Assembly: GCA_015143295.1 (NCBI GenBank)
Contig: CM026562.1
Span: 14,412,041 to 14,476,040, forward strand
Length of the DNA stretch: 64,000 nucleotides
Direction of reading: 5' to 3'
Source of the DNA: Tetracentron sinense
Taxonomy: Eukaryota; Streptophyta; Magnoliopsida; Trochodendrales; Trochodendraceae
Below the pieces are notes generated by a model. It did no database searches, had not been told where the DNA came from, and saw nothing but the letters and a program-made list of their open reading frames with translations. Position numbers and translations under genes: made by a program. Numbering within the stretch: position 1 is the stretch's first letter; every line of letters starts with the position of its first letter. This document shows, piece after piece, positions 6,244 through 63,869 of the stretch.

Positions 6244-6270
6244 TGTAGAACCCCGGAACCGAGTTCAGTA

Positions 6271-18735: not shown

Positions 18736-18768
18736 TATACGGCTGAGCATGGAATACTCGGCGTGTAC
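18736..18768 (-). promoter_or_regulatory. U5 stem-loop, copy in LTR E
   Basis: GGCTGAGCATGGAATACTCGG with GTAC-rich flanks, the reverse orientation of the 8806-8837 hairpin. Confidence 0.55.
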
Positions 18769-20631: not shown

Positions 20632-20672
20632 CCGTAAAAAGAATTTTTATTTTTCTGGATTCTTTTTTAAAC

Positions 20673-20682
20673 CCTATATAAA
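20673..20682 (+). promoter_or_regulatory. TATA box, Sirevirus A 5' LTR
   Basis: CTATATAAAC, identical in the 3' LTR at 30556-30565. Confidence 0.75.
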
Positions 20683-21367: not shown

Positions 21368-21380
21368 TGGTATCAGAGCT
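21368..21380 (+). promoter_or_regulatory. Primer-binding site, initiator Met tRNA
   Basis: TGGTATCAGAGCT, 2 nt after the 5' LTR end. Confidence 0.93.
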
Positions 21381-21426
21381 AGTTCACTGATAAGGCTAAT
21401 CCCTTAAGTGTGATCCTGTATTATCC

Positions 21427-23491: not shown

Positions 23492-23524
23492 TTTATTCCA
23501 AATGATTATTCAAGAGGAAAGAAT

Positions 23525-24289: not shown

Positions 24290-24294
24290 TTCAT

Positions 24295-26715
24295 ATGGAT
24301 CTTATGGGTCCTACAAGAACTGAAAGCCTAGGTGGAAAGCGATATATCCTAGTCATGGTTGATGATTTCTCAAGAATGTCATGGGTGGCATTTATAAGAG
24401 AGAAATCCGATGCTTTTGACAATTTCAAAAGTATTTGCTTGAAAATTCAAAATGAGAAAAGATGCCCAATCACTCGAATTCGAAGTGATCATGGAAAGGA
24501 GTTTGAAAACTCTAAGTACAACGACTTTTGTGATGAGTCGGGTATCAAACATGAATTTTCTGCACCTATTACACCTCAGCAGAATGGTGTAGTAGAGAGG
24601 AAGAACAGGGTTCTCCAAGAGATGGCTAGAGTTATGCTTCATAGCAACAATCTAGCTTCTCATTTCTGGGCTGAGGCAGTTAACACTGCTTGCTATATAG
24701 TTAATAGAGTTTTTGTAAGACCTGGAACAAGGAAAACCCCATATGAGTTATGGAATAACAAGAAACCTAGTGTCAAGTACTTTCGAGAATTCGGAAGTAA
24801 ATGCTATATCCTTAAGGATAGAGAGCAACTGGGCAAATTTGAATCCCGGAGTGATGAAGGGATATTTCTTGGATATTCCACCAACAGTAGAACTTATCGA
24901 GTGTATAACTTGAGAACCTCTACGATTATGGAGTCCATAAATGTAGTTGTGGATGACTCCGGTGTTGAAACTGTGCAACTTGAGGATGATGAAAGTGCTG
25001 AATATGAAAATGTTGAAACTGTTTCAACTCCACCTATAAATAAGCAATCATCTCCATCAAAACCTACACATTCTAGGGTCATGAGTCCTCACATCCCCAC
25101 TGATATAATTGGTGATGTTGAAAGTGGAGTGAGAACGAGAAAACAAATTGAAAATGAAGTTAGCTACATTTGCTATACTTCATCTTTTGAACCCAAGAAT
25201 GTAGCTGAAGCTCTTGCAGATGATAATTGGATAAATGCAATGCAAGAAGAGTTACTTCAGTTTACTAGGAATGATGTTTGGTATTTAGTACCTAGGCCTA
25301 ACAATACAAATGTGATTGGTACCAAATGGATTTTCAAGAATAAATCTGATGAAAAAGGTACTATCATAAGAAATAAGGCTAGGTTAGTTGCACAAGGATA
25401 CACCCAAATTGAAGGTATTGACTTCGATGAAACGTTTGCTCCTGTAGCCAGGCTAGAATCAATAAGAATTCTTCTAGCTGTGGCTTGCCATATGAAATTC
25501 AAACTTTTTCAAATGGATGTTAAGAGTGTCTTTCTGAATGGCATTCTACATGAGGAAGTCTATGTGGAACAACCAAAAGGGTTTGAAGATCCACATCACC
25601 TTGATCAAGTCTATCGGCTAAAAAGGGCCCTCTATGGTTTAAAGCAAGCTCCAAGAGCTTGGTATGAGAGGCTGACTACTTATCTCTTGGAAAATAGATT
25701 TTCGAGAGGGGGAGTAGACAGAACCCTTTTCATAAAGAATGTGAAAGGTGATATTGTCATTGCCCAGATATATGTTGATGACATAGTGTTTGGTTCCACA
25801 TTAGACTTACATGCTCTTTCATTTGCTGAATAAATGAAAAATGAATTTGAAATGAGCATGGTTGGTGAGCTAAGTTTCTTCCTTGGTCTTCAGATCAAGC
25901 AATTGGATTCTGGGATCTCAGTATCTCAAATCAAATATGCTAAAAATCTAGTGAAGAAATTTTGCATGAGCTCTGCTAAGCATGTAAGAACTCCTATGAG
26001 TTCTACTACAAAACTTAGTAAAGATGCTACAGGCAAAGATGTTGATCAAACTTCTTATAGAAGCATGATTGGTAGTTTACTCTACCTAACTGCTACTAGA
26101 CCTGATATAACCTTTAGTGTTGGTGCATGTGCCCGCTATCAAGCGAGCCCAAAAGAGTCCCACTTACTTGCAGTTAAGCGTATCATTCGATATGTGAGTG
26201 GAACTCTATCATTTGGACTCTTGTATTCTTTTGATACAAATGCCACGATAGTTGGATATTCCGATGCCGATTGGGCCGGAAATGCTGATGATAGGAAAAG
26301 CACCTCTGGAGGATGTTTCTATATTCGAAACTGCTTAGTTGCTTGGCTTAGCAAAAAGCAGAATTCAATTTCATTGTCCACTGCAGAAGCTGAATACATA
26401 GCAGCTGGCAGTTGTTGCACTCAACTTCTGTGGATGAAGCAGATGTTGAATGATTACGGGATTGAACAGAGCACTATGACTGTGTATTGTGATAATTCAA
26501 GTGCTATCAATATTTCCAAAAATCCCGTTCAACATTCTCGCACAAAACACATAGACATAAGACATCACTTCATCCGTGATCTTGTTGAGCAAAAGATTGT
26601 GTCTATAGAGTATGTCCAAACAGAGAATCAATTTGCGGACATTCTAACAAAACCCTTAGATTCCCTTAGGTTTGAACTCCTTAGGAAATCCATAGGTTTG
26701 TGCGGAGTTGAGTAA
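24295..26715 (+). pseudogene. pol: Sirevirus A integrase-RT-RNase H, one stop
   Basis: The first open segment (512 aa) has the integrase catalytic triad at D2, D65 and E101 (spacing 62 and 35), the copia RT core from about residue 300, and the RT catalytic YVDD at about 493-496. A TAA at 25831-25833 interrupts the same frame just after the YVDD motif. The second segment (293 aa from 25834) finishes RT and holds RNase H (SDADWAG near 143, STAEAEY near 182, YCDNSSA near 218), ending at a natural stop. Order IN-RT-RH is diagnostic of Ty1/copia. The intact-looking domains and single stop indicate recent decay. Confidence 0.9.
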
Positions 26716-27899
26716 AGATGTACTTGTTTCTTAGCCTATGTGTTCTTCATGTTCTATTTATGTCATAGAGCTATTTTTTTTGTTATTTTCTTTAATTAAT
26801 AAAAATCCAAAAACATTCAAAAAATAAAAAAAAAATATTGTAAAAAATAATGTGTATGTATGACCTTCTTTCCAATCATTTTGCTTAAAGTTATTTCTTT
26901 GAAATCATATTTGAACATATAATGCAAGGATAAATATTTCATAGGATTGGATAAATTAGGATAGGTCAACTGTTGGTTTGATCTTGTGATTGAATTTGGT
27001 CATGCTAACTAATCTCAGTTAGAGTTGAGTAAACAAAGATGTTATCTAATGCACATGCACTCTAACTAATTCTTTAGATGGTATTAGTTCCTATTTAAAG
27101 GTTCTGATATTACACCATATGGTTCCCTAGATTAATCAAATCTAGTATAACCAATGTCATAAAAAATTCCATAAGGTGAGCCCCCTAGTTATAAAAATTA
27201 TTGACATGGAGAGGACTACCTGTGAGTTTGTGTGATAGCTACTAGTGAATGCAAACAGTGAGTAATGGCTACCTAGACAAACAGTAGGTATCTATATGGA
27301 TTGCTAGTGTGAAAGCCCCCACTGTCATTAGAAAGAGCTACCTTCTCACTTGAGTGAACGTCACCAATGTGCTAAAAACTATATATGTGTACTCCAAAAA
27401 GAATTTTAACAATGAGTACAATTTGACTGAAAAAGAAATGAAATAAATTTTTTAGTCAAATTTGGGGTAAAAATTGCTCATCATATAAGTATGGATGTTT
27501 ATTGGTTTTAAAACTAGTTTTTGAAAATTTTAGAGTCTCATTTGAGCTATAATGTCAAAATCTAGCTTAAGGAAGGAAACCAATTCAAAGAGTCAAGTAA
27601 TGAATTTTGATTTCACACTCACATTACTTCTAATTGTTTCTTGACTCTGATTGTGAATTTGATGCAAATACCATATTTAATCACCGGTGAAAATCAATTA
27701 TTGTTTACATAATCCTTGTTTATGACTGTACTTGATATATCAATTCTTGGGTGATTATTCTTTATGATTTTAATGAAATCAATTATTGCAAATTTTTTGG
27801 TGACTTGGTTATTTTGAGGTGAAAATGAGTTTTTAATGTATCGTTGGTTGAGGGGGAGAAATGGTTTTAAAAGCAAAATTTTTGAAAATTTTTTAGACC
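26716..27899 (+). other. Sirevirus A spacer between pol and env-like ORF
   Basis: About 1.2 kb of non-coding DNA with A/T-rich runs and no ORF over 60 codons of note. Its end carries a purine tract GAGGGGGAGAAATGG (about 27850-27864), resembling the terminal polypurine tract; multiple such tracts are a Sirevirus trait. Confidence 0.6.
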
Positions 27900-27958
27900 A
27901 CCGATCGCTCAGTGTTAAAGACCAATCGATCGGTCTTTCGTGAACAGAGTTATAAAAC
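27900..27958 (+). promoter_or_regulatory. Possible internal promoter before env-like ORF
   Basis: Two palindromes of the LTR A type, ACCGATCGCTCAGT (27900-27913) and ACCAATCGATCGGT (27921-27934), followed by TTATAAAAC at 27950-27958, about 190 bp before the ATG at 28148. It looks like a reduced copy of the LTR module. Promoter activity is an inference. Confidence 0.5.
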
Positions 27959-28147
27959 CCTCATTTCTATTTTTTTGTTCACTTCTTCTCCGAACTCTAG
28001 AGCGATCTCTCGGTTACCTCTCCTCCAAATCCTTCTTACGGTCATTCCATTCAACTCTAAGGGTTTCCCAAGCATCAAAAAGGTAAGCCTTGTATGTTTT
28101 CTTGCATATAGGTTGAATTTCTCATCTAGGGCTTCGACTGTTCATCC

Positions 28148-29437
28148 ATGGCTTTCCTTTTGTCCTTAATCCTTCTAGCCTATCTCATGTCTGGTGTTCC
28201 CAAATGCAGGAGGTTGGTCCTCAACAACCAAGAGTACCCTCCTGAAGATGAGCAAAACCAAGAGCCTTTTACTTTCACTCCAATAGGGCATGGTATTTCA
28301 ATTAGGGACAGGCCAATTCGTAGAATGATAGATTCTACAACTGAGAATCAACAAAAATCTTTGGCTGATAAAACTCGGAAAAATAAAGGTAAAGCTTCAT
28401 CTTCCCAGTCCAGTCAGTTATCTCAGTTCATAAGTCCTACTGCTACTCAACTCTATAGTGAGTATTTTAGCAAGAAAGGTGTAATGGTTGAAAGGGACAT
28501 TCAAATTGCCGATTTTGGTGATTATTATCTTCCTAAACTCATTTCAGATCGTAAATGGGAAGGTATACTTACCTTATCCGGTCCTGCTTCTGTCCAGTTA
28601 GTTAGGGAATTTTACTCTAATTTTTCTGAAATCAACCATAAAAAATGGTCATTCAAATCTCGAGCATTAGAACAATCTGTTGTCATAAATGCTGATTTGA
28701 TTTCTAAATTCCTTGGCTGTCCTCGAGTTCCAAATGCATATTATCCTTATAATTATAAGAGTGATGAGAATAAAGACACCATGGAACATGTTGTTACCTT
28801 TCTTTGTGGTACTCCTACGTTTTGGGTTGGGTCTCTTATTGAAGTGGCGAAACTCACTAAGGATGCTAGACTAGTAAACCTAGTTATGAGTGCAAATATC
28901 CATCCAAAGGTTCATACTGCGGACCTTAGGGAAGATAGAGCTAGGTTTCTATTTAGTCTTCTACGTGGGCGTGATATTGATCTTGCCGCTCACATCATTG
29001 ACTTGATGATCCAAGCCCATCAAACTGTTACAGCAGTTGGAGCCCTACCATTTGGTTCACTCATCACTAAACTTCTTGGTTCTCAAGGATTTATCGCTCC
29101 TCCTGGTATTCCTACTCGAGTTCCTAAGGGTCCAATCAACAAAAAGACCCTAGCTCAGAGTTTTTCACATGCCTCAGTTCGAGATACAGAGGAGGGAGCA
29201 AAAGTTGGTGCTGGGTCATCTCGTCCTCCTCCGGCCACTATGGATGATCTTGCCAGGATGATACGAGAGATGCAGATGGATCTCAGGACTCATGTTTCGT
29301 CATATGAGGAGTTTACTACAGAAGTTCGTGGTAGACTTGGATCTCTCGATACAGCAATGCTGGGCGTACAGAGAGATGTTCGGGATTTTCGAGCTTACTA
29401 TGAGTCCCAGCTCACTTCTGATGATGAGCAGGAGTGA
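28148..29437 (+). CDS. Sirevirus env-like ORF, 429 aa, intact
   Basis: Open for 429 codons with no stop or frameshift, in contrast to gag-pol. It lies after pol and before the 3' LTR, the position of the env-like gene of Sireviruses. Residues about 3-17 form a hydrophobic segment resembling a signal or membrane anchor; about 110-290 resemble the domain annotated in plants as putative plant transposon protein (REDRARFLFSLLRGRDIDLA is the clearest stretch); 365-420 form an amphipathic, heptad-like C-terminus likely to be a coiled coil. A possible intron (donor at 28083, acceptor at 28209) would remove the start codon and the hydrophobic segment, so the N-terminus is uncertain. Envelope function has not been shown for this class; membrane role is speculative. 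Confidence 0.78.
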   Translation: MAFLLSLILLAYLMSGVPKCRRLVLNNQEYPPEDEQNQEPFTFTPIGHGISIRDRPIRRMIDSTTENQQKSLADKTRKNKGKASSSQSSQLSQFISPTATQLYSEYFSKKGVMVERDIQIADFGDYYLPKLISDRKWEGILTLSGPASVQLVREFYSNFSEINHKKWSFKSRALEQSVVINADLISKFLGCPRVPNAYYPYNYKSDENKDTMEHVVTFLCGTPTFWVGSLIEVAKLTKDARLVNLVMSANIHPKVHTADLREDRARFLFSLLRGRDIDLAAHIIDLMIQAHQTVTAVGALPFGSLITKLLGSQGFIAPPGIPTRVPKGPINKKTLAQSFSHASVRDTEEGAKVGAGSSRPPPATMDDLARMIREMQMDLRTHVSSYEEFTTEVRGRLGSLDTAMLGVQRDVRDFRAYYESQLTSDDEQE

Positions 29438-30015
29438 TAGTTAGATTGATGTACTAGGATAGAAACTCCTTCTGGTTCATGTGTATATTTTGGATTTTAT
29501 CTTAGTTCTAGTTTTTGTTTGACATTTCGATGTATTTTGTCTTGGTTGTACTTAGTACAAACCTATTTGGCTGTTTTAACTTGGTATGGATTTTTGCATT
29601 TGGATGGTTTCTTATATCTCATCTCATTTGTGTTTATGCGTTAATTTTATTGTTAATAGTCCGCCTTTGGCATTTCGAGCCAGAAAGGGGGAGAGTGCAT
29701 GATAACACATGGATATGATATGATGATTTTGTGGACGTGGATGATAATTGTGTGGATGATGTTATGGAAACATACTTAACATGTTATGGATATTTCCCAT
29801 ATTTTATTTCTCATGCTTCACAGGTTTTTGATTTAGCATGTGCAGGCAAACAGGTTCTAAGTTTGGTGAATCATGACAAGCTAACATGTCAAAAGTCATG
29901 TAATTATTTTTGGGTCATGTAAAGGTCAATTTTCCATTTTTGAATCATTTGGGAAAATTTGAACCTAGTATATGAGTTAGTCTTGTTTTGTCCCGGAATT
30001 GCCAAAGGGGGAGAT
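29438..30015 (+). other. Sirevirus A 3' untranslated region with two polypurine tracts
   Basis: Non-coding. AAAGGGGGAGAG at about 29685-29696 and AAAGGGGGAGA at 30004-30014; the second abuts the 3' LTR and is the functional-position polypurine tract. Confidence 0.75.
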
Positions 30016-31241
30016 TGTAAATCCCTAAATAGGTGTTGGCAAATTCCGTGATCATTAGATAGGTCATGTGAGTCGAGTCGTCGAGTCATGTTCAACTTGT
30101 CAGAAGAGAAGAGCTAAAGCTTAAAGAAGATTGAAGAAAGTGAAGAAAAAGCTCCTACTCTGGATCTAGAAAGGTAATGGACTTAGAGACCCCTACCCAG
30201 GTTGGATTTGGCTTAGATAACTCTAAACATACCTAGGAGGATAGTTTTAAACCTAACAAAGTTGTTTGATCTTAGTTGAATCAAATAAACATGAAAAGAC
30301 ATATGGTTTGAAAAAATTCTGTCTCAACCGATCGCTCGGTATTGAGACCGATCGATCAGTGGCTTACCGAGCGATCGGTGGCTATCAACTGGACAAAAAT
30401 TTTGTATGGGGTATTTTTCCAGAGAGATGATTTTTAACCGAGCGATCGGTCATGAGAACCGAGCGATCCGTTTTGGACCGAGCGATCGGTAATGAGCACC
30501 GATCGATCGGTCCCCGTAAAAAGAATTTTTATTTTTCTGGATTCTTTTTTAAACCCTATATAAACAACTTTTTGGAGACCTAATTCGTGTCTTTGATTTT
30601 TTTGAAAGAGTAGAGGTCTGAGAAACTCCTCTAGGGTTTTTCCTATTGTTCTATTAGATCTTTGTTGATCCCTCCTCTTTCTTTGATCCTAGAGAATGCA
30701 AGTATAGATCTAAACCTTTGATCTTGCATTGTGTAATCTCAGATCTGTATGAGATCCCTCTAGGGTTTGAAACTTCCTAAATTGATTCACAACCCTACAC
30801 CTTGTGTGTGTGTCCGGTGTTTGATCCGGAGCCTTCGTGAAAGGAGATCGATCGTGTGTGATCGTGGTTTTGAAGTAGCTTGAGAAGATTTGGTCGGTGT
30901 GGAACCGAAGCTGCTACGGCGGAGATCGAACCTGCTGGTTCGTGGAAATCAAGAGTAAGAGTCTATACCTAGGAACGTCGTTTCTGTTTTGGTAAGGTCT
31001 TGTCTTGTACTTGATATCTTTTCATAGTGAAGTTTATTGCTAGACAAGGTCCCGTGGTTTTTTCCCGTTAGGGTTTTCCACGTAAAAATCTTCTGTGTTT
31101 GATTTGTGTGGATTGTCTGAGTGAATTGTTCATTGATTTCTAAACATATTAATTGAAAAATTAAAATTTGTTAGAAATTATTAGATAGACCTATTCACCC
31201 CCCCTCTAGGTCTTAGAGATCATTGATCTGGATAAATTTCA
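30016..31241 (+). repeat. Sirevirus A 3' LTR
   Basis: 1226 bp, nearly identical to 20134-21365; part of the length difference lies in the terminal C-run. Palindrome module at 30327-30513 and TATA box at 30556-30565. Confidence 0.93.
30327..30513 (+). promoter_or_regulatory. Palindrome module of Sirevirus A 3' LTR
   Basis: Same seven palindromes and spacer as in the 5' LTR, with two substitutions seen: one in the GCTATCGACTGG block (reads GCTATCAACTGG) and one in the last palindrome. Confidence 0.75.
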
Positions 31242-31617
31242 GTAGGCTTGCTGCGATCGATCACAAACTCACCCGAATGTTTTTCCAGATTTTTCCTTGA
31301 TTTCGACTGTCTACAATCGATCGTAGGCTTGCTGCGATCAATCTCAAACTTACCCGAATGTTTCCCTAGATTTATCCCTGACTATGATCGATTGCACACC
31401 ATCTGCAATCGATCAAAACTTCCTTTTTCTCATTTTTTTCATTCGTAGACCCTTTGCAGTGTTTTCACTCTCCTTAGGGCACTAACCCACCTACATACCA
31501 CACATAGTTTGTTATCAACCATTTTTCTCATTAATCTAAATTCAAAATACATGAAAAGCCATTTGGCCTTGAAAAACACTATTCACCAACTATGTAAATG
31601 AGTTTCGGGGTTCTACA
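31242..31617 (-). mobile_element. Gypsy LTR E, right (U3) part
   Basis: Resumes with the duplicated GTAGG and runs to CGGGGTTCTACA at 31617, the U3 terminus. It contains further GCGATCGATC dyads (31253-31425). Confidence 0.78.
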
Positions 31618-37413: not shown

Positions 37414-38629
37414 TGAAATTACCCTGATCGATGATCTCTATGACCTAGAGGGGGGGTGAATAGGTCTATCTAAGAATTTCTAACCAATTTTAATTTTTCA
37501 ATTTATTTGTTTAGAAATCAATAAACAATTCACACAAACATTCCACACAAATCAAACACAGAGAATTTTAACGTGGAAAACCCTTACGGGGAAAAACCAC
37601 GGGACCACGTCCAGCAACAAGCTTCACTATGAAAAGATTTCAAGTACAAGACAAGACCTTACCCAAACCAGAAACGAAGTTCCTAGGTATAGACTCTTAC
37701 TCTTGATTTCCACGAACCAGCAGGTTTGATTTCCGCCATAGCAGCTTCGGTTCCACACCGACCAAATCTTCTCAAGCTACTTCAATACCACGATCACACA
37801 CGATCGATCTCCTTCCACGAAGGCTCCGGATCATATACCGGACACACACACAAGGTGTAGGGTTGTGAATCAATTTAGAAAGCTTCAAACCCTAGAGGGA
37901 TCTCATACAGATCTGAGATCACACAACGCAAGATCAAAGGTATAGATCTATACTTGCATTCTCTAGGATGATTGAAAGAGGAGGGATCACTAAAGATCTA
38001 TGAAGAAAAAAAGAGAAAGCCCTAGAAGGGTTTCTCAGACCTCTACTCTTGCAAAAATAAACAAAGATATGAATTAGGTCTCCAAAAAGTTGTTTATATA
38101 GGGTTTAGAAAAGAGTCTAGAAAAATAAAAAATTCTGTTATCGAGGACCGATCGATTGGTGCTTATAACCGATCGCTCGGTACAAAACGGATCGATCGGT
38201 ATTCACACCGATAGATCGGTTAAATATTACCTCTCTGGAAAAATACCCCATACATATTCTTAGACCAGCCGATAGCCACCGATCGCTCAGTAGGCCACCA
38301 ATCGATCGGTATCAACATCGAGCGATCGGTTGAGACAGAATTTCAGCCAAAACATATTTCTTTTCATTTTTGTTTGATTCAAATAAGACCAAAAGACTTT
38401 TTTAGGCTTAAAACTATCCTCCTAGGTATGTTTAGGGTTATCTAAGTCAAATCCAACCTAGGTAGGGGTCTCTAAGTCCATTACCTGTCTAGATCCGGTG
38501 TAAGAGCTTTTTCTTCAATTTCTTCACTCTTCTTGAAGCTTTAGCTCTTCTGACAAGTTGAACAAGACTCAACACACATGACCTATCTAATTATCATGGA
38601 ATTTGCCAACACCTACTTAGGGATTTACA
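37414..38629 (-). mobile_element. Sirevirus A solo LTR inside the LINE
   Basis: 1216 bp, the reverse complement of the Sirevirus A LTR, from TGAAATT to GGGATTTACA, flanked by exact TCTCT (37409-37413 and 38630-38634). It is more diverged from the two full-length-element LTRs than they are from each other, so it is an older insertion. Confidence 0.9.
38146..38332 (-). promoter_or_regulatory. Palindrome module of the solo LTR A
   Basis: Same order of palindromes and spacer as 20445-20631, reversed, with individual units mutated (for example ACCGATAGATCGGT). TATA (GTTTATATAG) lies at about 38092-38101. Confidence 0.7.
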
Positions 38630-49204: not shown

Positions 49205-51845
49205 TGTCGCGACCCAAAATACCCCCTGGGAGTTAGGGATACTTTGGCTCGTGATGTGCCATATCCGATACCAAACCATCCTGTAATAACATCCAAGTCA
49301 TGACAAACATAATCATGAATAAGGCGGAAGCTTAAACCAATGTGCGGAAGCGTAATCCAAAAATTTCTTTTCTATACATGCTGTGTATTCCAAGTTTGTA
49401 CATACATCACAAAAGTAAAGGTGGACATGCCCACCTATCAAAATACAAAATGATAATACTCTCTCTCTCTATGTAATCACTCTAAAAGGGCCAGTGGTCT
49501 AAATCATTTGCCTCCTCCGGAGGCTCTACATATGGCTCCTCCTCGCCATAATCCTCCTCTATCCAGGGCCCCTGATCACAGATGTCAAATGGAGTCCGTG
49601 TACCTGCCGACATAACATGTACGGCTGAGCATGGAATACACAGCGAGCAAAATCTACTAGCTAACAATGCTATCATAATCACAATATTTTATACAGTGCG
49701 TAAAAGAATACAAATCACCAAAATCCATGCTTAAAACCCGTCGGGAAAAACCTTTCATAAAACTTGTTCTTTTCATGGAAAACAAACCCTCTCATGTATG
49801 CTTATGAGTTCTTATGAATGCTTGTGAGCCTCGTGTTTTCTTATGAGTTCTTGTGAGCTTAGAGTTCTTGTGAGCTTGTGAGTACTTGTGAGCTTATGAG
49901 CTTCTTGTGAGCTTATGAGTACTTGTGAGCTTATGATCCTTGTGAGCTTGTTCTCCTTGGAGACATATGCAAGATCTTAGACTTGTGAGTTTCTTATGAG
50001 TTCTTGAAAAGCCTTGCGAGACTTATGATCTGTGGAGTTCATGCAAGATCTAGACTTGATCCTTGTGAGCGTGGAGTAACCGATCTTAGAATGCCAACCC
50101 AAAGTTTGGCTTAGTCTATGCTTATGCATGTATGCTTCTTACTTATGAATGCCTTTGAAAATCCTCTTATGTTTTCTTGAAAATTCATGCTTATGAGAAA
50201 AACCACGGTCGTGCAATACTTATCATGCGTAGAGTGCTTGTGAGCATTATAACATCTATGTGGAAAGCTTTAACTTATTAAACATGTTCATGCAAGGCAT
50301 AATGATCATTATAGTATACTTGAAGACCTTAAGTAACTCATATGGTTCATACAAGGTATATTAGCATCATAACATACTTAAACAATTCTAGAATATAGAA
50401 CATTTCATTCATTGCGTCACATCATAACAATCATGGCTTCTAAGCCTAATTCATCATATCACACTTAAAATCATGGTTCCTTGGAGGATATTAAAACTTA
50501 CTTGCACTTATAGTCATATTCACCCTTTTATTGGAAAACCCCCAAAATCTTAAATCCTTATTTGCTTATTTGAACATAATCAAGTTCACCCAAAATCCCT
50601 TGTTTGTCATTGCATCATAGTATACTTAAAATCATGGTTCATTTAAAGGTATTACAATTTTCTTACAAGTTTAGCCATATTCATCCTTGTTATTGAAAAA
50701 CCCCCAATTTGTAAAACCTTATTTGATTGTTTATTCATGATCTAGTTCACCCAAATTTCCACACTTCCTATTTGTATCATAATAGAATTAAAATCACCTA
50801 TTTGAATCATCTTTGTATGATAACAAGGCTAGATAGTAGTTTACTAACCTCTTTGGATCAATTTCTAGGTTGAAGAAACCCCTTGAGAAATCCTCACTTG
50901 ATTTGAATGATCCAAGCTTGATTTGGGGAAGATCCAACCCTTGATTGAAGCTCTTCTTGGTTTCAAGCAAAACCCTCTTTAGAATGCTCAAGATCCTTTC
51001 CTTCTCTTTCTAGGAACTCTCCTTGGTTTAGGGTAACCCAAAAACCCTCCTAAAGTCTTCTATTTATAGTGTAAGGGGTGAAAAACCCCTAAAAAATCGC
51101 ATCCAAGAAAGTAAAATCGCGTATCTACGATCGTTCGTAGCAATTTACGATTGATCGTAGCCTTCTACGATCGATCGTAGCTTCCTATGATCAATCGTAG
51201 TTTCACCCAAGAGTTTCCATCATTTCTGGGGCTTTACGATCGATCGTAGAAACTCTACGATCGTTCGTAGCTCCGCTACGATCGTTCGTAGGGTCCCTAC
51301 GAGCGATCGCAACTTTTGCAGAAAGCTTCAGCATTTTTGCATTTTCGTATCTTGGTCATAACTTTTGATTCGCTTGTCCGATTTTAACGATTCAACTTGT
51401 GTTGGATTCGTCTTTCGAAGCAAAACAACTTTTATGTTTTTCACAACTTCCAATTCTTCCTTTTTCTTGAACCATTTGGCCCCTAAACCTGATTGATCCG
51501 AAATTGGGTTTCGTCAATCCAGATTTTAAACCGACCCGACTTCAGAAATCGGTCTTTTGACCTAACACCAACTCAAAACCAAGACAAGTGATCAACATGA
51601 ACCCCGAAGAGGGTTCAATTACCTTTCCAAAAATTCAAGAATCGCTTGATTCTGACAAGCGGTGTGAACGCTAGGGCTATTTAGAGTCGAGGGTATGCCA
51701 AGGCATAACCCTTGTCAATACTCAAGAGTATTCTATACTCTTGCCTATTTCATTCCAAACACCCATACACCATAAATACATTCTTACATGCTTTAGTATA
51801 TGATATCATTCGTCGTACACGGCCATCAAGATCCGGGGTTCTACA
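49205..51845 (-). repeat. Tekay 3' LTR
   Basis: 2641 bp. U5 hairpin at 49618-49650, CTTATGAG/CTTGTGAG repeats at 49800-50000, TATA (minus) at 51060-51069, palindromes at 51117-51312. Confidence 0.93.
51117..51312 (-). promoter_or_regulatory. CTACGATCGATCGTAG palindrome cluster, 3' LTR, eight units
   Basis: Eight 16-bp near-palindromes starting about 48 bp upstream of the TATA box on the minus strand. One 21-bp unit (51272-51292 region) is absent from the other LTR, exactly accounting for the 21-bp length difference. Confidence 0.75.
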
Positions 51846-51860
51846 TCCTCCCCCCCTTAC
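51846..51860 (-). promoter_or_regulatory. Tekay polypurine tract
   Basis: The minus strand reads AAGGGGGGGAGGA directly before the 3' LTR. Confidence 0.88.
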
Positions 51861-51924
51861 AGAAATTTCGTCCTCGAAATTGGAACGATACATAGAGATT
51901 ATAAAGAAAAAAATTACATCAACA

Positions 51925-53439
51925 TCACTCAAACAAATTAGGATATTTTTTCCTCACTTCCGCTTCGCGCTCCCATGTAGCTTCTTCTCGTGAATGGTGT
52001 TGCCATCGAACAAGAACCAAGGGGATGACCTTATTGCGCAAGACTTGATCCCTACAGTCCAAAATTTGAACCGGCTCTTCCACCAAAGTGAGATCCTCTC
52101 GGACTTCTAGCGTATCAAGGTCGATCACATGAGAAGGATCCGGAATATATTTCCGAAGCATAGATACATGGAATACGTTGTGAACCGCCGCCATGTGAGT
52201 GGGTAGAGCAACCCGGTATGCAACTTCACCAATTCGGGTGATAATTTCAAATGGACCAACATACCTCGGGCTGAGCTTTCCTCTTTTGCCAAACCTCATA
52301 ACACCCTTTGTCGGTGAAACCTTCACAAATACCAGATCGCCAATACGGAACTCAAGATCTCGTCTACGGGTGTTGGCATAGCTCTTTTGCCTGTCCTGAG
52401 CCGTCTTTAATCTCTCTCTGATGATCTTGACTTTATTCGCGGTTTGTTCAATCAATTCCGGGCCCAATATCTTTCTCTCTCCAACTTCATCCCAGTATAG
52501 GGGAGATCTACAACTTCGACCATACAAGGCCTCAAAAGGAGCCATTTGGATGCTCGCCTGATAGCTGTTATTGTAGGCGAATTCCACCAATGGCAAGTGA
52601 TCCTCCCAACTGCCTTTGAAGTCCAACATGCAAGCTCGGAGCATGTCATCTATAACCTGGTTCACCCTCTCGGTCTGTCCATCTGTCTGAGGATGAAAGG
52701 CGGTGCTAAAGTCCAAACGGGAACCCATAGCGCTCTGAAAGCTTTTCCAGAACCAGGAAGTGAATCTTGGATCCCTGTCTGACACGATACTGACTGGCAC
52801 CCCGTGCAACCGAACCACTTCTTTGAGGTACAATTCTGCAAGTTGGTTCGAGTTGAACGTAGTCCGATAAGGCAAGAAATTGGCGGATTTTGTCAAACGA
52901 TCAACCACTACCCATATTTCATCCGATTTCTTTGTCGTTTTTGGCAACCCAGTGATGAAATCCATGGAGATGTTCTCCCATTTCCACTCGGGAATAGGGA
53001 GGGATTGTAAAAGCCCTGCTGGCCTCATATGCTCGGCCTTCACTTGTTGGCATACCAAGCATCTTGACACATACTCGGCAACTTCCCTCTTCATGTTCCG
53101 CCACCAAAAATGTCCTTTGAGGTTCCGATACATCTTTGTACCGCCAGGATGCACAGTGTACTTAGACCGGGGAGCTTCATCTAAGATTTCTAATTTGAGC
53201 TTCTCATCGGCTGGAACACATATCCTTCCCTTGAATGTGATTGTCCCATCACTTTGCACTGCAAAATCCTTACTGCCATCGCGAACCGACTTGTCTCTAT
53301 AGGCCAGCAGTTCGGCATCCAACTCTTGTAATTCTCGGATCATGGCCCATATGTAAGGCCTAACTGTGACATTAGCCATCACTGGCCCAGAGGTAGGAAG
53401 GTTGAAACTAATATCAAGGTTAGAAACATCTTCCAACAA
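51925..53439 (-). CDS. pol: Tekay integrase part of pol, 504 aa open segment
   Basis: Continues the protease-RT-RNase H polyprotein in the same frame after one TAA (53449-53451), so it is not an independent gene. Zinc-binding HHCC at H97, H110, C127 and C130; catalytic D160, D221 and E257 with spacing D-60-D-35-E. The GPF/GPY-type module follows (SPRYVGPFEIITRIG, near 395), then VHNVFHVSMLRKY and a chromodomain-like tail (VRWQHHSREEATWE), as in Tekay/Del chromoviruses. The tail is thought to guide insertion to heterochromatin, which fits the nested setting. Ends at a natural stop 65 bp before the polypurine tract. Confidence 0.9.
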   Translation of the reverse strand: MLEDVSNLDISFNLPTSGPVMANVTVRPYIWAMIRELQELDAELLAYRDKSVRDGSKDFAVQSDGTITFKGRICVPADEKLKLEILDEAPRSKYTVHPGGTKMYRNLKGHFWWRNMKREVAEYVSRCLVCQQVKAEHMRPAGLLQSLPIPEWKWENISMDFITGLPKTTKKSDEIWVVVDRLTKSANFLPYRTTFNSNQLAELYLKEVVRLHGVPVSIVSDRDPRFTSWFWKSFQSAMGSRLDFSTAFHPQTDGQTERVNQVIDDMLRACMLDFKGSWEDHLPLVEFAYNNSYQASIQMAPFEALYGRSCRSPLYWDEVGERKILGPELIEQTANKVKIIRERLKTAQDRQKSYANTRRRDLEFRIGDLVFVKVSPTKGVMRFGKRGKLSPRYVGPFEIITRIGEVAYRVALPTHMAAVHNVFHVSMLRKYIPDPSHVIDLDTLEVREDLTLVEEPVQILDCRDQVLRNKVIPLVLVRWQHHSREEATWEREAEVRKKYPNLFE

Positions 53440-53448
53440 CTTCCACTC

Positions 53449-55256
53449 TTACACCATCATGTGTGCTACAAGCCCAGTGGACTTCCTGCTCAAAGCACCT
53501 GCCACTACATTAGCCTTGCCCGGATGGTACTGGATCGAACACTCATAGTCCTTCAAGAATTTCATCCATCGGCGCTGTCGCATATTCAACTCCTTTTGGG
53601 AAAATAGGTATTTTAAGCTTTTATGATCCGTGAAAATATCAAACTCTTCCCCATAAAGGTAATGCCGCCAAATCTTTAATGCGAAAACCACCGCGGCCAA
53701 CTCCAAATCGTGAGTAGGATAGTTCTTTTCATGCTCTTTTAATTGCCGGGAAGCGTAGGCGATGACATTTCCGCGCTGCATAAGAACACATCCTAGCCCA
53801 ACATTCGAGGCATCACTGTAAACCATGAAACCTCCACTCCCAGACGGCACTGTGAGAATGGGGGCAGTAGTAAGCCTCTTCTTCAACTCCGTGAAGCTCG
53901 CTTCACACTTATCGCTCCAAGTGAACTTAGCATTTTTCCGTGTCAAATACGTGAGCGGTGCCGCTAAGCTGGAGAATCCCTCTACGAATCTCCTATAGTA
54001 TCCTGCTAAACCGAGGAAGCTGCGTATCTTGGTAACACTTTTGGGTCTCTCCCATTTCATCACCGCTTCTATCTTTGCTGGGTCTACTGAAATACCCTCG
54101 ACAGATACTACGTGGCCAAGGAACGCTACCTTCTCCAAACAAAATTCGCACTTACTCAACTTGGCGTATAGTTTATGCTCTCGAAGAGTCTCAAGTGTAA
54201 GGCGAAGATCTCGATCATGATCCTCCCTGGTCGGAGAATATACTAAGATGTCATCGATAAAGACGACAACACATTTGTCGAGATAAGGCTTGAATACCCG
54301 GTTCATCAAATCCATGAACGCCGCCGGTGCATTTGTTAGACCAAAAGGCATAACTAGGAACTCGTAGTGCCCATACCGAGTCCTGAAGGCAGTCTTTGGC
54401 ACATCTTCGGCCTTGATCTTCAACTGATGATAGCCGGACCGCAAATCAATCTTGGAGAAGAACCTTACTCCTTTCAGTTGGTCGAACAAATCATCTATTC
54501 GTGGCAAGGGGTATCGATTCTTGATGGTGACCTTGTTCAACTGTCTATAGTCGATGCACATCCTCATCGACCCATCCTTCTTCTTCACAAAGAGTACCGG
54601 TGCTCCCCACGGTGACACACTTGGTTGGATGAAACCAAGCCGTTGCAACTCTTCTATTTGCTCCTTTAATTCCTTCAGTTCAATAGGGGCCATCCTGTAC
54701 GGAGCCTTAGAAATTGGAGCCGTTCCAGGAGCAAGCTCTATTGCAAATTCTATCTCCCTATCTGGAGGTAACCCTAGTAATTCCTCGGGAAACACATCCA
54801 AATACTCTCTCACAACCGGTATGGCTGAGGAGTCTCGTGCCTCCGGATTTGCAAGACATAGAGCTGCTAGACGGGCTATATCTCTCATCCGAAGTCCATG
54901 AAAGTGGAATGGCTTGACGCCTTCTAACTTGAACTTCACCATCTTCTCAAAACAAGCCACATGCCCGTGGTGTGCAGCTAGCCAATCCATCCCGAGAATA
55001 ACATCGAAGTTCAAGTCCTGGAACTCAAGGATGATTAGATCAATCGGCAATTCATACTGCCCGACTTGAACTATACAATTCTGATATCCTCGGTCTGTAT
55101 CAACTGACTTGCCAAGCGGAGTCAAAATGGTTAACTCGTGACGTAGGCGACTCGGCTTAGACTCAAAACCTTTGGCAAAGCTTGGCGATACAAAAGAATG
55201 TGTCGATCCCGTGTCGATCAACACACGAGCTAGACACTCGTTCACTAGCAATACGC
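53449..55256 (-). CDS. pol: Tekay protease-RT-RNase H, about 600 aa open segment
   Basis: Protease active site IDTG (D13-T14-G15 of the 600-aa segment beginning at 55251), RT from about residue 190 ([33 protein letters not shown]) with catalytic FIDD near 331-334, RNase H near 470-590 ([20 protein letters not shown]). There is no ATG at the start; it is best read as joined to gag across the 137-bp intron-like interval 55257-55393. It ends at TAA 53449-53451, where the related copy at 60.5 kb has a Gln codon (CAA), consistent with a single C-to-T change. Otherwise undamaged. Confidence 0.9.
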
Positions 55257-55393
55257 CTGTGCATTGTAATTAACTATATCAGCGGTTTTCAGCAACATAC
55301 ATAGAGTATAGGTAGCATGACATACAAGTGATTATACGTATACTTATAGCACTCATCATTTCATACTTGAACACTTTAGAAATTCTCGCGTAC
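55257..55393 (-). other. Probable intron between Tekay gag and protease
   Basis: On the minus strand the interval starts GTACGCG after CAAG and ends ATGCACAG before GCGTATTG, that is, GT...AG with plausible flanks. It contains stops in the coding frame. Removing 137 bp brings the end of Gag and the start of protease into one frame with the residue order expected of this clade (VVQ, Gly, then [16 protein letters not shown]). Confidence 0.62.
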
Positions 55394-56717
55394 CTTGCAC
55401 AACATCGTCTGATGCCTGTGCGTCCCATTCTGTTAAGGCAAAGACCCGGCCTCTGTTTGCCTGGCGAGGCTATTGTGTGGTCTGAGTGGGCCGTGCGGGT
55501 CTAGATGCTGAAGCTTGTGAAGACCCCTGCTGAGAAGTCTGCCGAACTGGGGGCCTGCTCCCCTGAGGCTGAGCCCGTGACTGTCGGCGTGGGCAATCTT
55601 TAATTATGTGGCCCTGCTCGCCACAATGGAAACATCCTCCCGATGCTCTCCGACACTCTCCAGCCGGGTGTCTCCGACCATAATAGTCACACTCCTCAAA
55701 GGATGAAGAGGGTGACGGCTGTACATATCTGGTGCCCTGAGAAAAAGCGGGGTGAGGTGCCTATGAAGTAGTCGGGCGAGGCACTAGTGATGCAAACGAA
55801 GACCTCTGTGTCTGTGTAGGCCTAGGAGGTGGGTACTGGGAAATCCTGGCCCTCTTCTCCGGTGGTGCTGAGCCACTAGACTGACCCTTCTGCATGGCTC
55901 TCCCGAAGCCACCCTCTCTTCTTTTAAGAAACTCCTCTGAGTTCTTTTCGGCAATCCTTGCCTTCCCCACAATCTCTCTCCAAGACTCCACTTGAAGAAT
56001 GGAGACTCGATCCTTGATGAAGGGCTTCAACCCACTCTCAAATTTCCGGACTCGCATCTCCTCCGTCGTGATCAAGTGTGGTGCGAATCGGGACAATTCA
56101 ACGAATTTGGCCTCATACTCGGCCACACTCATATTCCCTTGCACTAGGGACATGAACTTCATCTCCTTCTGTTGCTTGACAATCTTGGGAAAGTACTGCC
56201 CATAGAAGGCATCAAGGAATTCACCCCAAGTCCACGGCTCTCCTGCCCTGGCGGTGTCTCTCTGTCTCAACGCCGCTCTCCACCAATGAACGGCTTCTCC
56301 TTCCATCATGAAGGCAGCCCAATCTACCCTTTGCTCATCGGTGCAACGAAGAGCACGGAATATTTTCTCCAGTTGCATAATCCATGCCTCTGCAACCATG
56401 GGGTCGGTGGTCCCGTAAAAGGTAGGTGGATGTAGCCTTCGGAATGCCTCGAGTCCCGAGGTGTGATGTGGAGGAGGTGGGTGTGCCAACGCAGTAGTAG
56501 CAGCGGGCTGTCGGGCTGCTAGCATGGTGATGGTCTCCACCATAGTATTTAACAACTGAGATATATCGGGTTGATCATCACCCGAGGGAGGGTCTCCTCC
56601 ATTACTGTTGCCCCGAGTTTGGTAACCGCGACCCTGTCCACTACCACGTCTCATGTTAATCCTGAGAACAGTAGCAGAACATGAGTCTAACTTGGAAACC
56701 AACTTCATCTCAATCAC
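55394..56717 (-). pseudogene. gag: Tekay gag, two premature TAG
   Basis: The Gag frame opens at 56717; the ATG at about 56654, before RRGSGQGRGYQTRG, is an alternative start. The retrotransposon Gag domain spans roughly residues 90-240 (FYGTTDPMVAEAWIMQLEK, EGEAVHWWRA, QGNMSVAEYEAKFVELSRFA). A TAG at 55761-55763 ends the 318-aa open segment; the same frame continues through a CCHC zinc knuckle (CFHCGEQGHIIKDC, about 55590-55640) to a second TAG at 55470-55472 and then RVFALTEWDAQ, the end of nucleocapsid. Both TAG could be CAG-to-TAG changes. Gag would be made as particles in the cytoplasm. The copy is probably unable to make full Gag unless the stops are read through. Confidence 0.85.
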
Positions 56718-56960
56718 AAATTCAAGCTCATTTCAAATTCATAAGGTAATTGATAGTAATACATCAAGGTATACATTGTAGTAGATAATCATACAATGTG
56801 TGGTTCTAGCGTAGGGTACTAAGTTCGGTCGGATTCCAACCGGTTATGGACTAAGACTAAAGATTAGTCTATACTTGGAATACGACTCTTTCCTCAATCC
56901 TAATGCCTTGTTTTGATCGTGGTATCGAGTACTAAGTGACCCTAGGGACTCTAATGCCTA

Positions 56961-56973
56961 AGCTTTGATACCA
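56961..56973 (-). promoter_or_regulatory. Tekay primer-binding site
   Basis: The minus strand reads TGGTATCAAAGCT, initiator Met tRNA type, 4 nt from the 5' LTR edge at 56978. Confidence 0.88.
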
Positions 56974-56977
56974 CCTC

Positions 56978-59597
56978 TGTCGCGACCCAAAATACCCCCT
57001 GGGAGTTAGGGATACTTTGGCTCGTGATGTGTCATATCCAATACCAAACCATCCTGTAATAACATCCAAGTTATGACAAACATAATCATGAATAAGGCGG
57101 AAGCTTAAACCAATGTGCGGAAGCGTAATCCAAAAATTTCTTTTCTATACATGCTGTGTATTCCAAGTTTGTACATACATCACAAAAGTAAAGGTGGACA
57201 TGCCCACCTATCAAAATACAAAATGATAATACTCTCTCTCTCTATGTAATCACTCTAAAAGGGCCAGTGGTCTAAATCATTTGCCTCCTCCTGAGGCTCT
57301 ACATATGGCTCCTCCTCGCCATAATCCTCCTCTATCCAGGGCCCCTGATCACAGATGTCAAATGGAGTCCGTGTACCTGCCGACATAACATGTACGGCTG
57401 AGCATGGAATACTAAGCGAGCAAAATCTACTAGCTAACAATGCTATCATAATCACAATATTTTATACAATGCGTAAAAGAATACAAATCACCAAAATCCA
57501 TGCTTAAAACCCGTCGGGAAAAACCTTTCATAAAACTTGTTCTTTTCATGGAAAACAAACTCTCTCATGTATGCTTATGAGTTCTTATGAATGCTTGTGA
57601 GCCTCGTGTTTTCTTATGAGTTCTTGTGAGCTTAGAGTTCTTGTGAGCTTGTGAGTACTTGTGAGCTTATGAGCTTTTTGTGAGCTTATGAGTACTTGTG
57701 AGCTTATGATCCTTGTGAGCTTGTTCTCCTTGGAGACATATGCAAGATCTTAGACTTGTGAGTTTCTTATGAGTTCTCGAAAAGTCTTGCGAGACTTATG
57801 ATCCGTGGAGTTCATGCAAGATCTAGACTTGATCCTTGTGAGCGTGGAGTAACCGATCTTAGAATGCCAACCCAAAGTTTGGCTTAGTCTATGCTTATGC
57901 ATATATGCTTCTTACTTATGAATGCCTTTGAAAATCCTCTTATGTTTTCTTGAAAATTCATGCTTATGAGAAAAACCACGGTCGTGCAATTCTTATCATG
58001 CGTAGAGTGCTTGTGAGCATTATAACATCTATGTGGAAAGCTTTAACTAATTAAACATGTTCATGCAAGGCATAATGATCATTATAGTATACTTGAAGAC
58101 CTTAAGTAACTCATATGGTTCATACAAGGTATATTAGCATCATAACATACTTAAACAATTCTAGAATATAGAACATTTCATTCATTGCGTCACATCATTA
58201 CAATCATGGCTTCTAAGCCTAATTCATCATATCACACTTAAAATCATGGTTCCTTGGAGGATATTAAAACTTACTTGCACTTATAGTCATATTCACCCTT
58301 TTATTGGAAAACCCCCAAAATCTTAAATCCTTATTTGCTTATTTGAACATAATCAAGTTCACCCAAAATCCCTTGCTTGTCATTGCATCATAGTATACTT
58401 AAAATCATGGTTCATTTAAAGGTATTACAATTTTCTTACAAGTTTAGCCATATTCATCCTTGTTATTGAAAAACCCCCAATTTGTAAAACCTTATTTGAT
58501 TGTTTATTCATGATCTAGTTCACCCAAATTTCCACACTTCCTATTTGTATCATAATAGAATTAAAATCACCTATTTGAATCATCTTTGTATGATAACAAA
58601 GCTAGATAGTAGTTTACTAACCTCTTTGGATCAATTTCTAGGTTGAAGAAACCCATTGAGAAATCCTCACTTGATTTGAATGATCCAAGCTTGATTTGGG
58701 GAAGATCCAACCCTTGATTGAAGCTCTTCTTGGTTTCAAGCAAAACCCTCTTTGGAATGCTCAAGATCCTTTCCTTCTCTTTCTAGGAACTCTCCTTGGT
58801 TTAGGGTAACCCAAAAACCCTCCTAAAGTCTTCTATTTATAGTGTAAGGGGTGAAAAACCCCTAAAAAATCGCATCCAAGAAAGTAAAATCGCGTATCTA
58901 CGATCATTTGTATCGATTTACGATTGATCGTAGCCTTCTACGATCGATCGTAGCTTCCTATGATCAATCGTAGTTTCACCCGAGAGTTTCCAGCATTTCT
59001 GGGGCTTTACGATCAATCGTAGAAACTCTACGATCGTTCGTAGGGTCCCTACGAGCGATCGCAACTTTTGCAGAAAGCTTCAGCATTTTTGCATTTTCGT
59101 ATCTTGGTCATACCTTTTGACTCGCTTGTCCGATTTTAACGATTCAACTTGCGTTGGATTTGTCTTTCGAAGGAGAACAACTTTTATGTTTTTCACAACT
59201 TCCAGTTCTTCCTTTTTCTTGGACCATTTTGCCCCTAAACCTGACTGATCCGAAATTGGGTTTCGTCAATCCAGATTTTAAACCGACCCGACTTCAGAAA
59301 TTGGTCTTTTGACCTAACACCAACTCAAAACCAAGACAAGTGATCAACATGAACCCCAAAGAGGGTTCAATTACCTTTCCAAAAATCCAAGAATCGCTTG
59401 ATTCTGACAAGCGGTATGAACGCTAGGACTATTTAGAGTCGAGGGTATGCCAAGGCATAACCCTTGTCAATACTCAAGAGTATTCTATACTCTTGCCTAT
59501 TTCATTCCAAACACCCATACACCATAAATACATTCTTACATGCTTTAGTATATGATATCATTCGTCGTACATGGTCATCAAGATCCGGGGTTCTACA
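56978..59597 (-). repeat. Tekay 5' LTR
   Basis: 2620 bp, the partner of 49205-51845. U5 hairpin at 57391-57420, TATA at 58833-58842 (minus), palindromes at 58899-59068 (seven units). Confidence 0.93.
58899..59068 (-). promoter_or_regulatory. CTACGATCGATCGTAG palindrome cluster, 5' LTR, seven units
   Basis: Same as 51117-51312 but one unit shorter and with several changes in the unit nearest the TATA box. Confidence 0.75.
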
Positions 59598-62000: not shown

Positions 62001-62237
62001 ATGTAGAGCCCCGAATCTTTATTGCACTAAGTGATGAATAATGTGTGAATAGTACTCAAGTGTGGTTTTGTGCACTAATGGGCTTTATGTTAATATACGA
62101 GTTTGGATTTATGGCGTGCATGTTTTAATGGGCCTAGATATCACTAAGGAGCATGTATTAGGCATAAAAGAGTGTTAGAATGATATTGGAGGAGTTTCAA
62201 GCAATCGGAACAAGGTTTTACAGCAAAACAGGGGATC

Positions 62238-62404
62238 ACCAATCGCTCGGTGCCATCCTCCGATCGATCGGTAGCTATCGACTGGTCAACTTTTTTGTAT
62301 AGGGAAATTTTCCAGAGAGGGTGTTTTCAACCGATCGCTCAGCTGAAACCACCGATCGACCGGTAAGCCACCGATCGCTCGGTCTGTACCACCGATCGAT
62401 CGGT
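62238..62404 (+). promoter_or_regulatory. Palindrome module shared with Sirevirus A LTR
   Basis: Two ACCGATCGATCGGT-like palindromes, a spacer with GCTATCGACTGG (62274-62285), TTTTGTAT (62293-62300) and CCAGAGAG (62312-62319), then four palindromes. These three blocks have identical offsets (0, 19, 38) in Sirevirus A (20499, 20518, 20537). Confidence 0.8.
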
Positions 62405-62460
62405 TATACGCAGATTTTCTTCATTAAGGGTGTTTAAGACTTTAGCTACCACCCTTTGAC

Positions 62461-62468
62461 TATATAAA
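62461..62468 (+). promoter_or_regulatory. TATA box of the deleted Tekay LTR
   Basis: TATATAAA, 57 bp after the last palindrome. Confidence 0.75.
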
Positions 62469-63380
62469 GGCTAGGTTCGTGCCTTAGGGTTTCGGAAACC
62501 CTTAGTGCATATTTTTGAGAGATTTTGAAGAGGAGAAGAAGGTGAGGAACTACTTGTTGATCAAGCTTGTGGAAGATCAAGGTTCTTCCACTTCCTTTGG
62601 TGATTCTCAACCATGAACTCACGGTTCTTGCTTGTTCCAGCTCGTGGGAATCAAAGACGTTCATTTTACCAAGTTAGATACACTCTACTACCAATCTTGC
62701 AATCCTACTAAGTTACTAAATGATGTCCTTCTAAATCTATACTACTTATGTATATATATCTTGGATGTTTATGGTGTGAAAGTATGTAGTTTATATACTT
62801 GGGTGAAAGATACTATTATGATGCACTTTAAGTGTTTGAAGAAATACCTCTAAGGGATTTTCTGCTTAAATATGATAATTTCTCTCATATGCTCATATGC
62901 TCGCATGTCTCACATGAATCGATGTTTTCCATGGATTTCTCAAAGTACGAAAAGGAGTTTTTCACTAGATGACTAATAAGGAACGATTCTAAGTAACTCT
63001 ATGATTTCTCTAAGATCGTTTCACAAGCTCTACGGATCATACTATGCTCATAAGAAACTCTAGGATAAGCTCTAAGATCGTCTCACAAGCTCTACGGATC
63101 ATAAATGTAATGCTCTAAGATCTCTAAGGATATGCTCTATGTTGTGCTCTATGGTATCTTCATGTCTCTACGGATCATAATGACTCTATGTAACTCCATG
63201 AACTCACAAGAACTCACAAGGCTATGATTATCGCATGACTCACACGGTTATAGTTTTGGTTTTGGTTTCGAACCTCATCTCACATGTTATTTTAAGGTTT
63301 CCACGCTCTTACATGTTTTTACGGATTTCATTCTCCATGATTTGTATGCCCTATGCTTAATGCTTTATTGTTATTAGTTT

Positions 63381-63410
63381 GTATACGCTGAGTATTCCAC
63401 GCTCAGCCGA
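63381..63410 (+). promoter_or_regulatory. U5 stem-loop, deleted Tekay LTR
   Basis: GTATACGCTGAG, TATTCCACG, CTCAGC: nearly identical to 8806-8837. Confidence 0.6.
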
Positions 63411-63869
63411 TATTTGTTATCATCGGCAGGTGCTCGGGCTCCGTTCGACATATGTGGCACGGAACCATGGTTAGAGGAAGAGTACTTCGACCCGGAGCCT
63501 TCCATGGATCATTATCAAGACGATGGTCCTATAGATAGGTGTCGAGACTTCGACTTTTATTGATCGGCAGACTTAGAACTTTACGATGTTATTTTGTGAT
63601 GTGAGTGTGGGGTTTGTCCACTCCACTTTTGGGTTTCCCACATGTATATACTTTTGTTAGTTCATACTTGAACTGAGTTATAGGAGTATCGCTTTGCTTT
63701 CGCTATGTTTAGTATTTTATTCCGCTGTGCATTCTTTATTGCTTCCGCTAGATATGTTTGTGTTTCTGACAGGTCTCCACGTATGCCTTATGTATTAAAT
63801 TGGAGGTATGATACGGCGGTCACGAGTCAATGTATCCCTAACTCCTAGGGGGTATTTTGGGTCGCGACA

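Follow-up and report, generated by a model that had tools for sequence, protein, structure and literature searches.

A 57-bp spacer between near-palindromic boxes common to Ty1/copia Sirevirus and Ty3/gypsy long terminal repeats in Tetracentron sinense

Can two kinds of retrotransposon with different polymerases carry the same piece of promoter-upstream DNA, and by what path would it have come to both? The question is raised by a stretch of 64,000 nucleotides from Tetracentron sinense (contig CM026562.1, positions 14,412,041 to 14,476,040), called the window below. Here the U3 regions of a Ty3/gypsy long terminal repeat (LTR) and of the LTRs of a Ty1/copia Sirevirus have the same kind of module, in which near-palindromic boxes stand on both sides of a unique spacer. 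An earlier note, made from the letters alone, had matched the gypsy module to that of the Sirevirus, and the match is borne out by 44 of 57 spacer positions and by the same box spacing. The region studied is this one 64-kb window, with one copy of the gypsy LTR and one Sirevirus family; positions 20200-21400, 30100-31300, 37400-38700 and 61500-64000 were read directly as letters. D denotes the Ty3/gypsy LTR, A5 and A3 the 5' and 3' LTRs of Sirevirus A, Ar a reversed solo Sirevirus LTR, and B, C, F and G four more LTR families of gypsy type found in the same 64 kb.

The module and its spacer

The copies of the module are placed as follows.

62238..62404, forward strand: module of D, two boxes, the 57-bp spacer, four boxes
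62273..62329, forward strand: unique spacer of D, 57 bp, 44/57 identical to Sirevirus A
62460..62468, forward strand: region of the TATA box in D, 56 bp past the last box
20445..20629, forward strand: module of A5, three boxes, spacer, four boxes; TATA at 20675
20498-20554, forward strand: spacer of A5, 57 bp
30327..30511, forward strand: module of A3
30380-30436, forward strand: spacer of A3, 57 bp
38147..38330, reverse strand: module of Ar, a solo Sirevirus LTR
38277-38221, reverse strand: spacer of Ar, 57 bp

The box is a 14-bp near-palindrome. In D the boxes start at 62238 and 62259 and, after the spacer, at 62330, 62351, 62370 and 62391; in A5 they start at 20445, 20465 and 20484 and, after the spacer, at 20555, 20576, 20595 and 20616. 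Starting with the box that directly precedes the spacer, D and A5 both have distances of 71, 21, 19 and 21 bp from box to box, and Ar has 71, 20, 19 and 21 bp. From that box to the final one, D and A5 agree without gaps at 105 of 146 positions, and within the five paired boxes at 58 of 70. Palindromes on both sides of a unique spacer, as first described for this locus, are found in all four of D, A5, A3 and Ar, and the TATA box that was said to lie 42-57 bp past the last palindrome does so at 45 bp in A5, 46 bp in Ar and 56 bp in D.

The spacer is exactly 57 bp long in every one of the four copies. Its ungapped identity to D is 44/57 for A5, 43/57 for A3 and 41/57 for Ar, and A5 and Ar agree with each other at 48/57. 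The earlier note had named a pairwise alignment of the spacer against shuffled controls as the comparison to make. With 5000 dinucleotide shuffles scored by ungapped identity over 57 bp, the D spacer gives a mean of 16.7 and a maximum of 29 against A5 (z 8.1), and a maximum of 27 against Ar (z 7.4), so that the 44 matches lie far above anything the shuffles produce. The best place in the window outside the modules, on either strand, matches 30 of the 57 positions. When the 64 kb are scanned with a profile built from three of the four A5, A3, Ar and D spacers, the four LTR copies score E 1e-16 to 2e-15 and nothing else falls below E 0.1; LTR C comes next at E 0.16. The three spacer words reported at offsets 0, 19 and 38 are indeed there in D and A5; the first word has a one-base change in A3 and likewise in Ar, and the TTTTGTAT word is also altered in Ar. 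Uneven constraint within the spacer was considered as well and is without proof: the positions that vary among the Sirevirus copies and those that differ between D and A5 coincide at four places (p 0.11).

The carriers and the other LTRs of the window

The elements that carry the module, and the LTRs with which they are compared, are listed here with their target-site duplications (TSDs) and open reading frames (ORFs).

62002..63869, forward strand: LTR D, Ty3/gypsy (TG...CA), 3' LTR of a 5'-truncated element
20134..31241, forward strand: Sirevirus A (Ty1/copia), LTRs 20134-21365 and 30016-31241, 98.4% identical, TSD GTAGG
27900..27934, forward strand: two extra boxes of Sirevirus A at a spacing of 21 bp, in front of its env-position ORF
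37414-38629, reverse strand: solo Sirevirus LTR (Ar), TSD TCTCT
6244..9213, forward strand: LTR C, solo, gypsy-type, TSD CATTA; spacer-like stretch at about 6938-6997
49205..59597, reverse strand: gypsy element B, LTRs 49205-51845 and 56978-59597, TSD GATTG
58899-59063 and 51126-51311, reverse strand: boxes of LTR B, TACGATCGATCGTA type, with a different, shorter spacer
18300..31617, reverse strand: LTR F, gypsy-type, starting at 31617 with its low end approximate, similar in parts to LTR B, TGCGATCGATCGCA-type boxes
1..432, reverse strand: LTR G, truncated at the window edge and assigned to the gypsy type from its LTR start only, ACCGGTCGACCGGT-type boxes 19-21 bp apart

Directly upstream of LTR D are a polypurine tract, an integrase ORF (60271-61797) and a chromodomain-like piece (61641-61910). 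The ORF contains RT_RNaseH at residues 5-43, Integrase_H2C2 at 157-213 and rve at 235-328 (the last under its cut-off), giving the gypsy order of RNase H, integrase and then 3' LTR. Its integrase is 77% identical to that of element B over 399 aa, and its frame is broken. The chromodomain PF00385 scores 24.3 bits in this element (E 2.9e-5), slightly below the curated cut-off of 25.1, and 23.9 bits in element B, under the same cut-off. A reverse transcriptase adjoining LTR D was looked for and not found; the 5' part of the element is missing. The element may belong to the Tekay lineage, a label given in the earlier note.

Outside the module, LTR D is a gypsy LTR, as shown by stretches of similarity to LTRs B and C: it is 60.6% identical to B over 860 bp, and to C 81.7% over 93, 65.3% over 285 and 65.1% over 129 bp, while C matches B at 64.3% over 487 bp and 62.4% over 702 bp. 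The similarity of D and C resumes just downstream of the module, at 62424-62543 in D and about 7074-7199 in C. Just past LTR D, at 63888-63998, lies the second copy of a 111-bp sequence that also occurs at 41772-41882 (99% identical); the window end cuts it.

Sirevirus A has the copia gene order, with rve (residues 11-94) before RVT_2 (326-501) in ORF 24295-25833, and its seven palindromic boxes at 20445-20629 stand upstream of the TATA box at 20675. Polypurine tracts GGGGGAG occur at 27852, 29687 and 30007, and polyC runs near the LTR ends at 21316 and 31198; the env-position ORF (28148-29437) has PF20167 Transposase_32 as its sole match. The best 120 rows of each protein search show identities of 49-74%; all rows that carry a name come from flowering plants, apart from two of a Corynebacterium assembly, which are taken for contamination. 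A Sirevirus array in the usual sense is carried by a Ty1/copia Sirevirus, and the carrier of LTR D is gypsy; the array of D may function as that of a Sirevirus does, though D is no Sirevirus LTR. Sirevirus A itself sits inside the box array of LTR F and splits that LTR, with the F box at 20118-20131 overlapping the TSD (20129-20133 / 31242-31246). Elsewhere in the window, 12492-14988 and 31996-34486 form a fragment pair that is 86% alike and has gypsy gag similarity.

Origin and function of the module

The best reading of these comparisons is that the copies in Sirevirus A and in gypsy LTR D, and weakly that in LTR C, are homologous, and we give roughly six chances in ten that this is an upstream-promoter module of U3 that moved between copia and gypsy families as a cassette. 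Such a transfer appears most likely because the polymerase superfamilies of the carriers differ and most of the remaining LTR has no alignable similarity. By BLAST, LTR D matches LTR A in the module alone (about 62238-62402, E 8e-25). The D/A flanks score 18-20, compared with 76 for the module, and the pieces between last box and TATA box are at shuffle level (p 0.80, dinucleotide shuffles). The observations behind the case are sequence similarity, position, spacing, the integrity of the LTRs and the nesting of Sirevirus A in LTR F. In LTR C, the spacer alignment has z 6.7 to A5, 5.5 to D and 3.7 to Ar, none of 1000 shuffles being as good for A5 or D, and BLAST aligns C to A at 67% over 89 bp (E 2e-7).

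Several findings weigh against this reading. The case for transfer is drawn from a single D copy and a single Sirevirus family. The linkers that separate the boxes are 7, 5 and 7 bp long in D and A5 alike, with unrelated letters (1/7, 0/5 and 2/7, or 3/19), which speaks against a very recent swap; a dating of the module by its linkers was dropped, as they hold too few letters. The spacer of LTR C is weak, with E 0.16 in the window profile and p 0.054 (local) or 0.002 (global) against Ar, and the three boxes of C are matched by 9 of 100 shuffles. The 200-bp downstream flank of D and A beats all 1000 plain shuffles, the 200-bp upstream flank has p 0.020 with plain and p 0.008 with dinucleotide shuffles, and the 200 bp taken with the TATA box have p 0.0075 (dinucleotide shuffles). 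Because these flanks score low yet above chance, a longer, faded homology of D and A that extends beyond the module is a live possibility.

What the module does, and by which route, in which direction and how long ago it would have moved, we infer. In its layout, near-palindromic boxes spaced by about two helical turns flank the 57-bp spacer, and a TATA box follows. Boxes at this distance would suit a dimeric host DNA-binding protein bound along one face of the DNA, and the spacer cores GCTATCGACTGG, TTTTGTATNGGG and TTTTCCAGAGAG could be sites for further factors; together, the box and spacer factors would recruit RNA polymerase II to the LTR promoter. Reverse transcription copies a changed 3' LTR U3 into both LTRs of a retroelement. 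The earlier note had offered recombination or template switching, or the copying of a host sequence by both, and each of these would be a candidate. A plausible route would begin when an element inserts among the boxes of a second LTR, as Sirevirus A did in LTR F, go on with recombination between boxes that exchanges a segment, and end when the altered U3 of the 3' LTR reaches both LTRs at the next reverse transcription. On this route the literature points two ways: in PMC6911290, nested elements are described as not commonly targeting LTRs, which weighs against it, and LTR retrotransposons, Sire included, as slightly preferring palindromic targets. The direction was perhaps from copia to gypsy. 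A hint comes from 27900-27934 in Sirevirus A, where boxes of the same type precede the env-position ORF and suggest that this box type is native to the element.

A different function is possible, though we would bet against it: the array might be mainly an RNA structure or a target of small RNAs and methylation instead of a promoter module that binds factors. In RNA folding, none of 200 shuffles comes up to either module (z -4.2 in D, -5.4 in A), palindromes in maize Sirevirus LTRs have been called small-RNA hotspots (PMC5311732), and the ratio of observed to expected CpG reaches 1.5-2.1 in the arrays of A5, Ar, D and B, compared with 0.4-0.8 outside the arrays of LTRs A5, D, B5 and C. However, palindrome arrays fold well whatever their role, the ratio is lower in the C and G arrays (0.47 and 1.12), and the common unique spacer with its similar TATA distance suits a promoter better.

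As to origin, convergence is the rival that survives best, if still an unlikely one: both LTRs would have built the same-spaced sites separately for the same host factors. For the boxes this is plausible. In A, B, D and G, neighbouring boxes follow each other at 19-21 bp (the spacer excepted), and F has pairs 21 bp apart (all measured with hand-chosen consensus boxes and at most 4 mismatches), while the box letters vary between LTR families; G has a regular ACCGGTCGACCGGT array without a visible spacer. When box letters are not preset and near-copies of one palindrome are counted against 100 shuffles, seven of eight U3 copies (A5, Ar, D, B5, B3, F and G) exceed every shuffle and LTR C does not, and none of eight control segments stands out. 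In this test the best palindrome of D includes a degenerate box at the spacer start, and G has 3 copies only. The boxes therefore reach further than the earlier note had it, to B, C, F and G too; its sharing of sequence between copia and gypsy, its spacer beyond shuffles and its view of D as not nested all stand, as does its caution that palindromes alone could converge, since boxes are common in the LTRs of the window and only the spacer makes the link of A with D. A cluster of near-palindromes with unlike letters also lies at 41302-41497, outside the LTRs studied. The repeated gain of heat-shock sites in copia LTRs (PMC5059998) is a further point for convergence. Nevertheless, a non-palindromic spacer of 57 bp with 44 ungapped matches and equal length and order is hard to obtain by chance and selection, and B and F carry other spacers: of 12 comparisons of these with A5, Ar and D, 11 give p of at least 0.053 and the lowest is 0.044 (D with F3), which is no match. 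Other comparisons among gypsy spacers give p 0.009 (C with F2), 0.001 (B with F1) and 0.009 (B with F2); a single origin of all gypsy spacers was dropped, as those of B and F are without match to A5, Ar and D. The boxes are thus a theme of many LTRs, and the spacer is common to A and D and weakly to C. It does not track LTR similarity, because B, C and D are alike elsewhere and the B spacer is unmatched.

Two further origins seem improbable to about the same degree. One and the same piece of host DNA, a promoter or some other genomic sequence, could have been taken up by both families, which would fit a compact, self-contained module with no other D-A similarity by BLAST, but all profile matches below E 0.1 in the 64 kb are the four LTR copies. 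Alternatively, the module could predate the split of copia and gypsy and have been kept by selection. Equal spacing with unrelated linkers does resemble old, constrained sequence, and the D/A flanks score slightly above shuffles; yet between A5 and Ar the spacer (84% identical) is kept no better than the LTR flanks (90-91%), decay after insertion included, and gypsy LTRs B and F are without it. Least probable is that D holds a partly deleted Sirevirus LTR fragment and no module of its own. In favour of this are the single copy of D and the break in its integrase frame. Against it, D has the TG...CA ends of an LTR and adjoins its own gypsy integrase, BLAST finds no Sirevirus LTR sequence past the module, no junction or duplication is seen, the TATA distance resembles that of A, and LTR C has a related spacer and is alike to D again right downstream.

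Outside the window, six of eight scans of viral contigs, made with spacer patterns, box patterns, copia pol or gypsy pol, gave no confirmed match, and the spacer pattern had no match in genome contigs. Alignment with gypsy pol yielded 35 loci in genome contigs, which are taken to be contamination or other DNA of eukaryotes within assemblies of prokaryotes, and the spacer profile found nothing below E 1.1 in them. Nine of these 35 loci, picked as they were by gypsy pol, have runs of at least 4 near-palindromes, with one palindrome repeated only in L010. In that locus, a gypsy LTR on a contig of a Labilibacter assembly, the palindrome ACTTACGCAAGT is repeated about every 19 bp (L010:700-800).

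Comparison with known systems

Two unrelated kinds of mobile element with the same DNA upstream of the promoter suggest that elements can exchange switches. It is tempting to generalise that plant LTR retrotransposons exchange whole U3 promoter cassettes across superfamilies, with box arrays as both functional core and landing sites for recombination, and with cis-control spreading independently of pol; this is tentative, and we put the odds somewhat against it. If the pattern is genome-wide, LTR control regions would not be bound to the polymerase lineage, and a transposon family might gain or alter an activation programme in a single step. It would also help to explain the fast divergence of LTRs, and could tie the CpG islands of Del/Tekay LTRs to the boxes of Sireviruses. 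The 57-bp spacer offers a direct handle by which to follow such exchange and to identify the host factor.

A palindromic cis-region of maize Sirevirus LTRs was reportedly described by Bousios and colleagues in 2016, as cited in PMC5311732. Sirevirus boxes and Del/Tekay CpG islands are known, and among the matches listed in a literature search there is no report of gypsy LTRs with a Sirevirus box array and a unique spacer, so the sharing of arrays and spacer between gypsy elements and Sireviruses is unreported among those matches. That conserved palindromic motifs of Sirevirus LTRs had already been described, as the earlier note stated, is confirmed by Bousios et al. 2010 (PMC2829016), where the RM boxes are palindromic and form CpG islands; they occupy the LTR's upstream half, a short way ahead of a conserved TATA box. 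Extra boxes occur upstream of env, and the boxes are called Sirevirus-specific as against classic copia elements. Sirevirus A is like these elements, with boxes before the TATA box and on the env side at 27900-27934, and the Vitis box CGGTCGACCG of that paper resembles the boxes of LTR G here. The comparison there is within Ty1/copia and, in the passages concerned, has no common unique spacer and no gypsy carrier, whereas the module here is also in gypsy. For Del (Tekay) gypsy LTRs, Cruz et al. 2014 (PMC4029996) describe a variable, CpG-rich 5' region in monocot groups and eudicot copies without a CpG island; the word palindrome is absent from that paper, and its passages on these LTRs mention no link to a copia module. 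In Brassicaceae, COPIA families of one host share a heat-responsive motif, and TERESTRA is locally similar to ONSEN LTRs (PMC5059998). That case, as described, is one of copia families and the repeated gain of short sites; in the present one a 57-bp spacer is common to members of two superfamilies.
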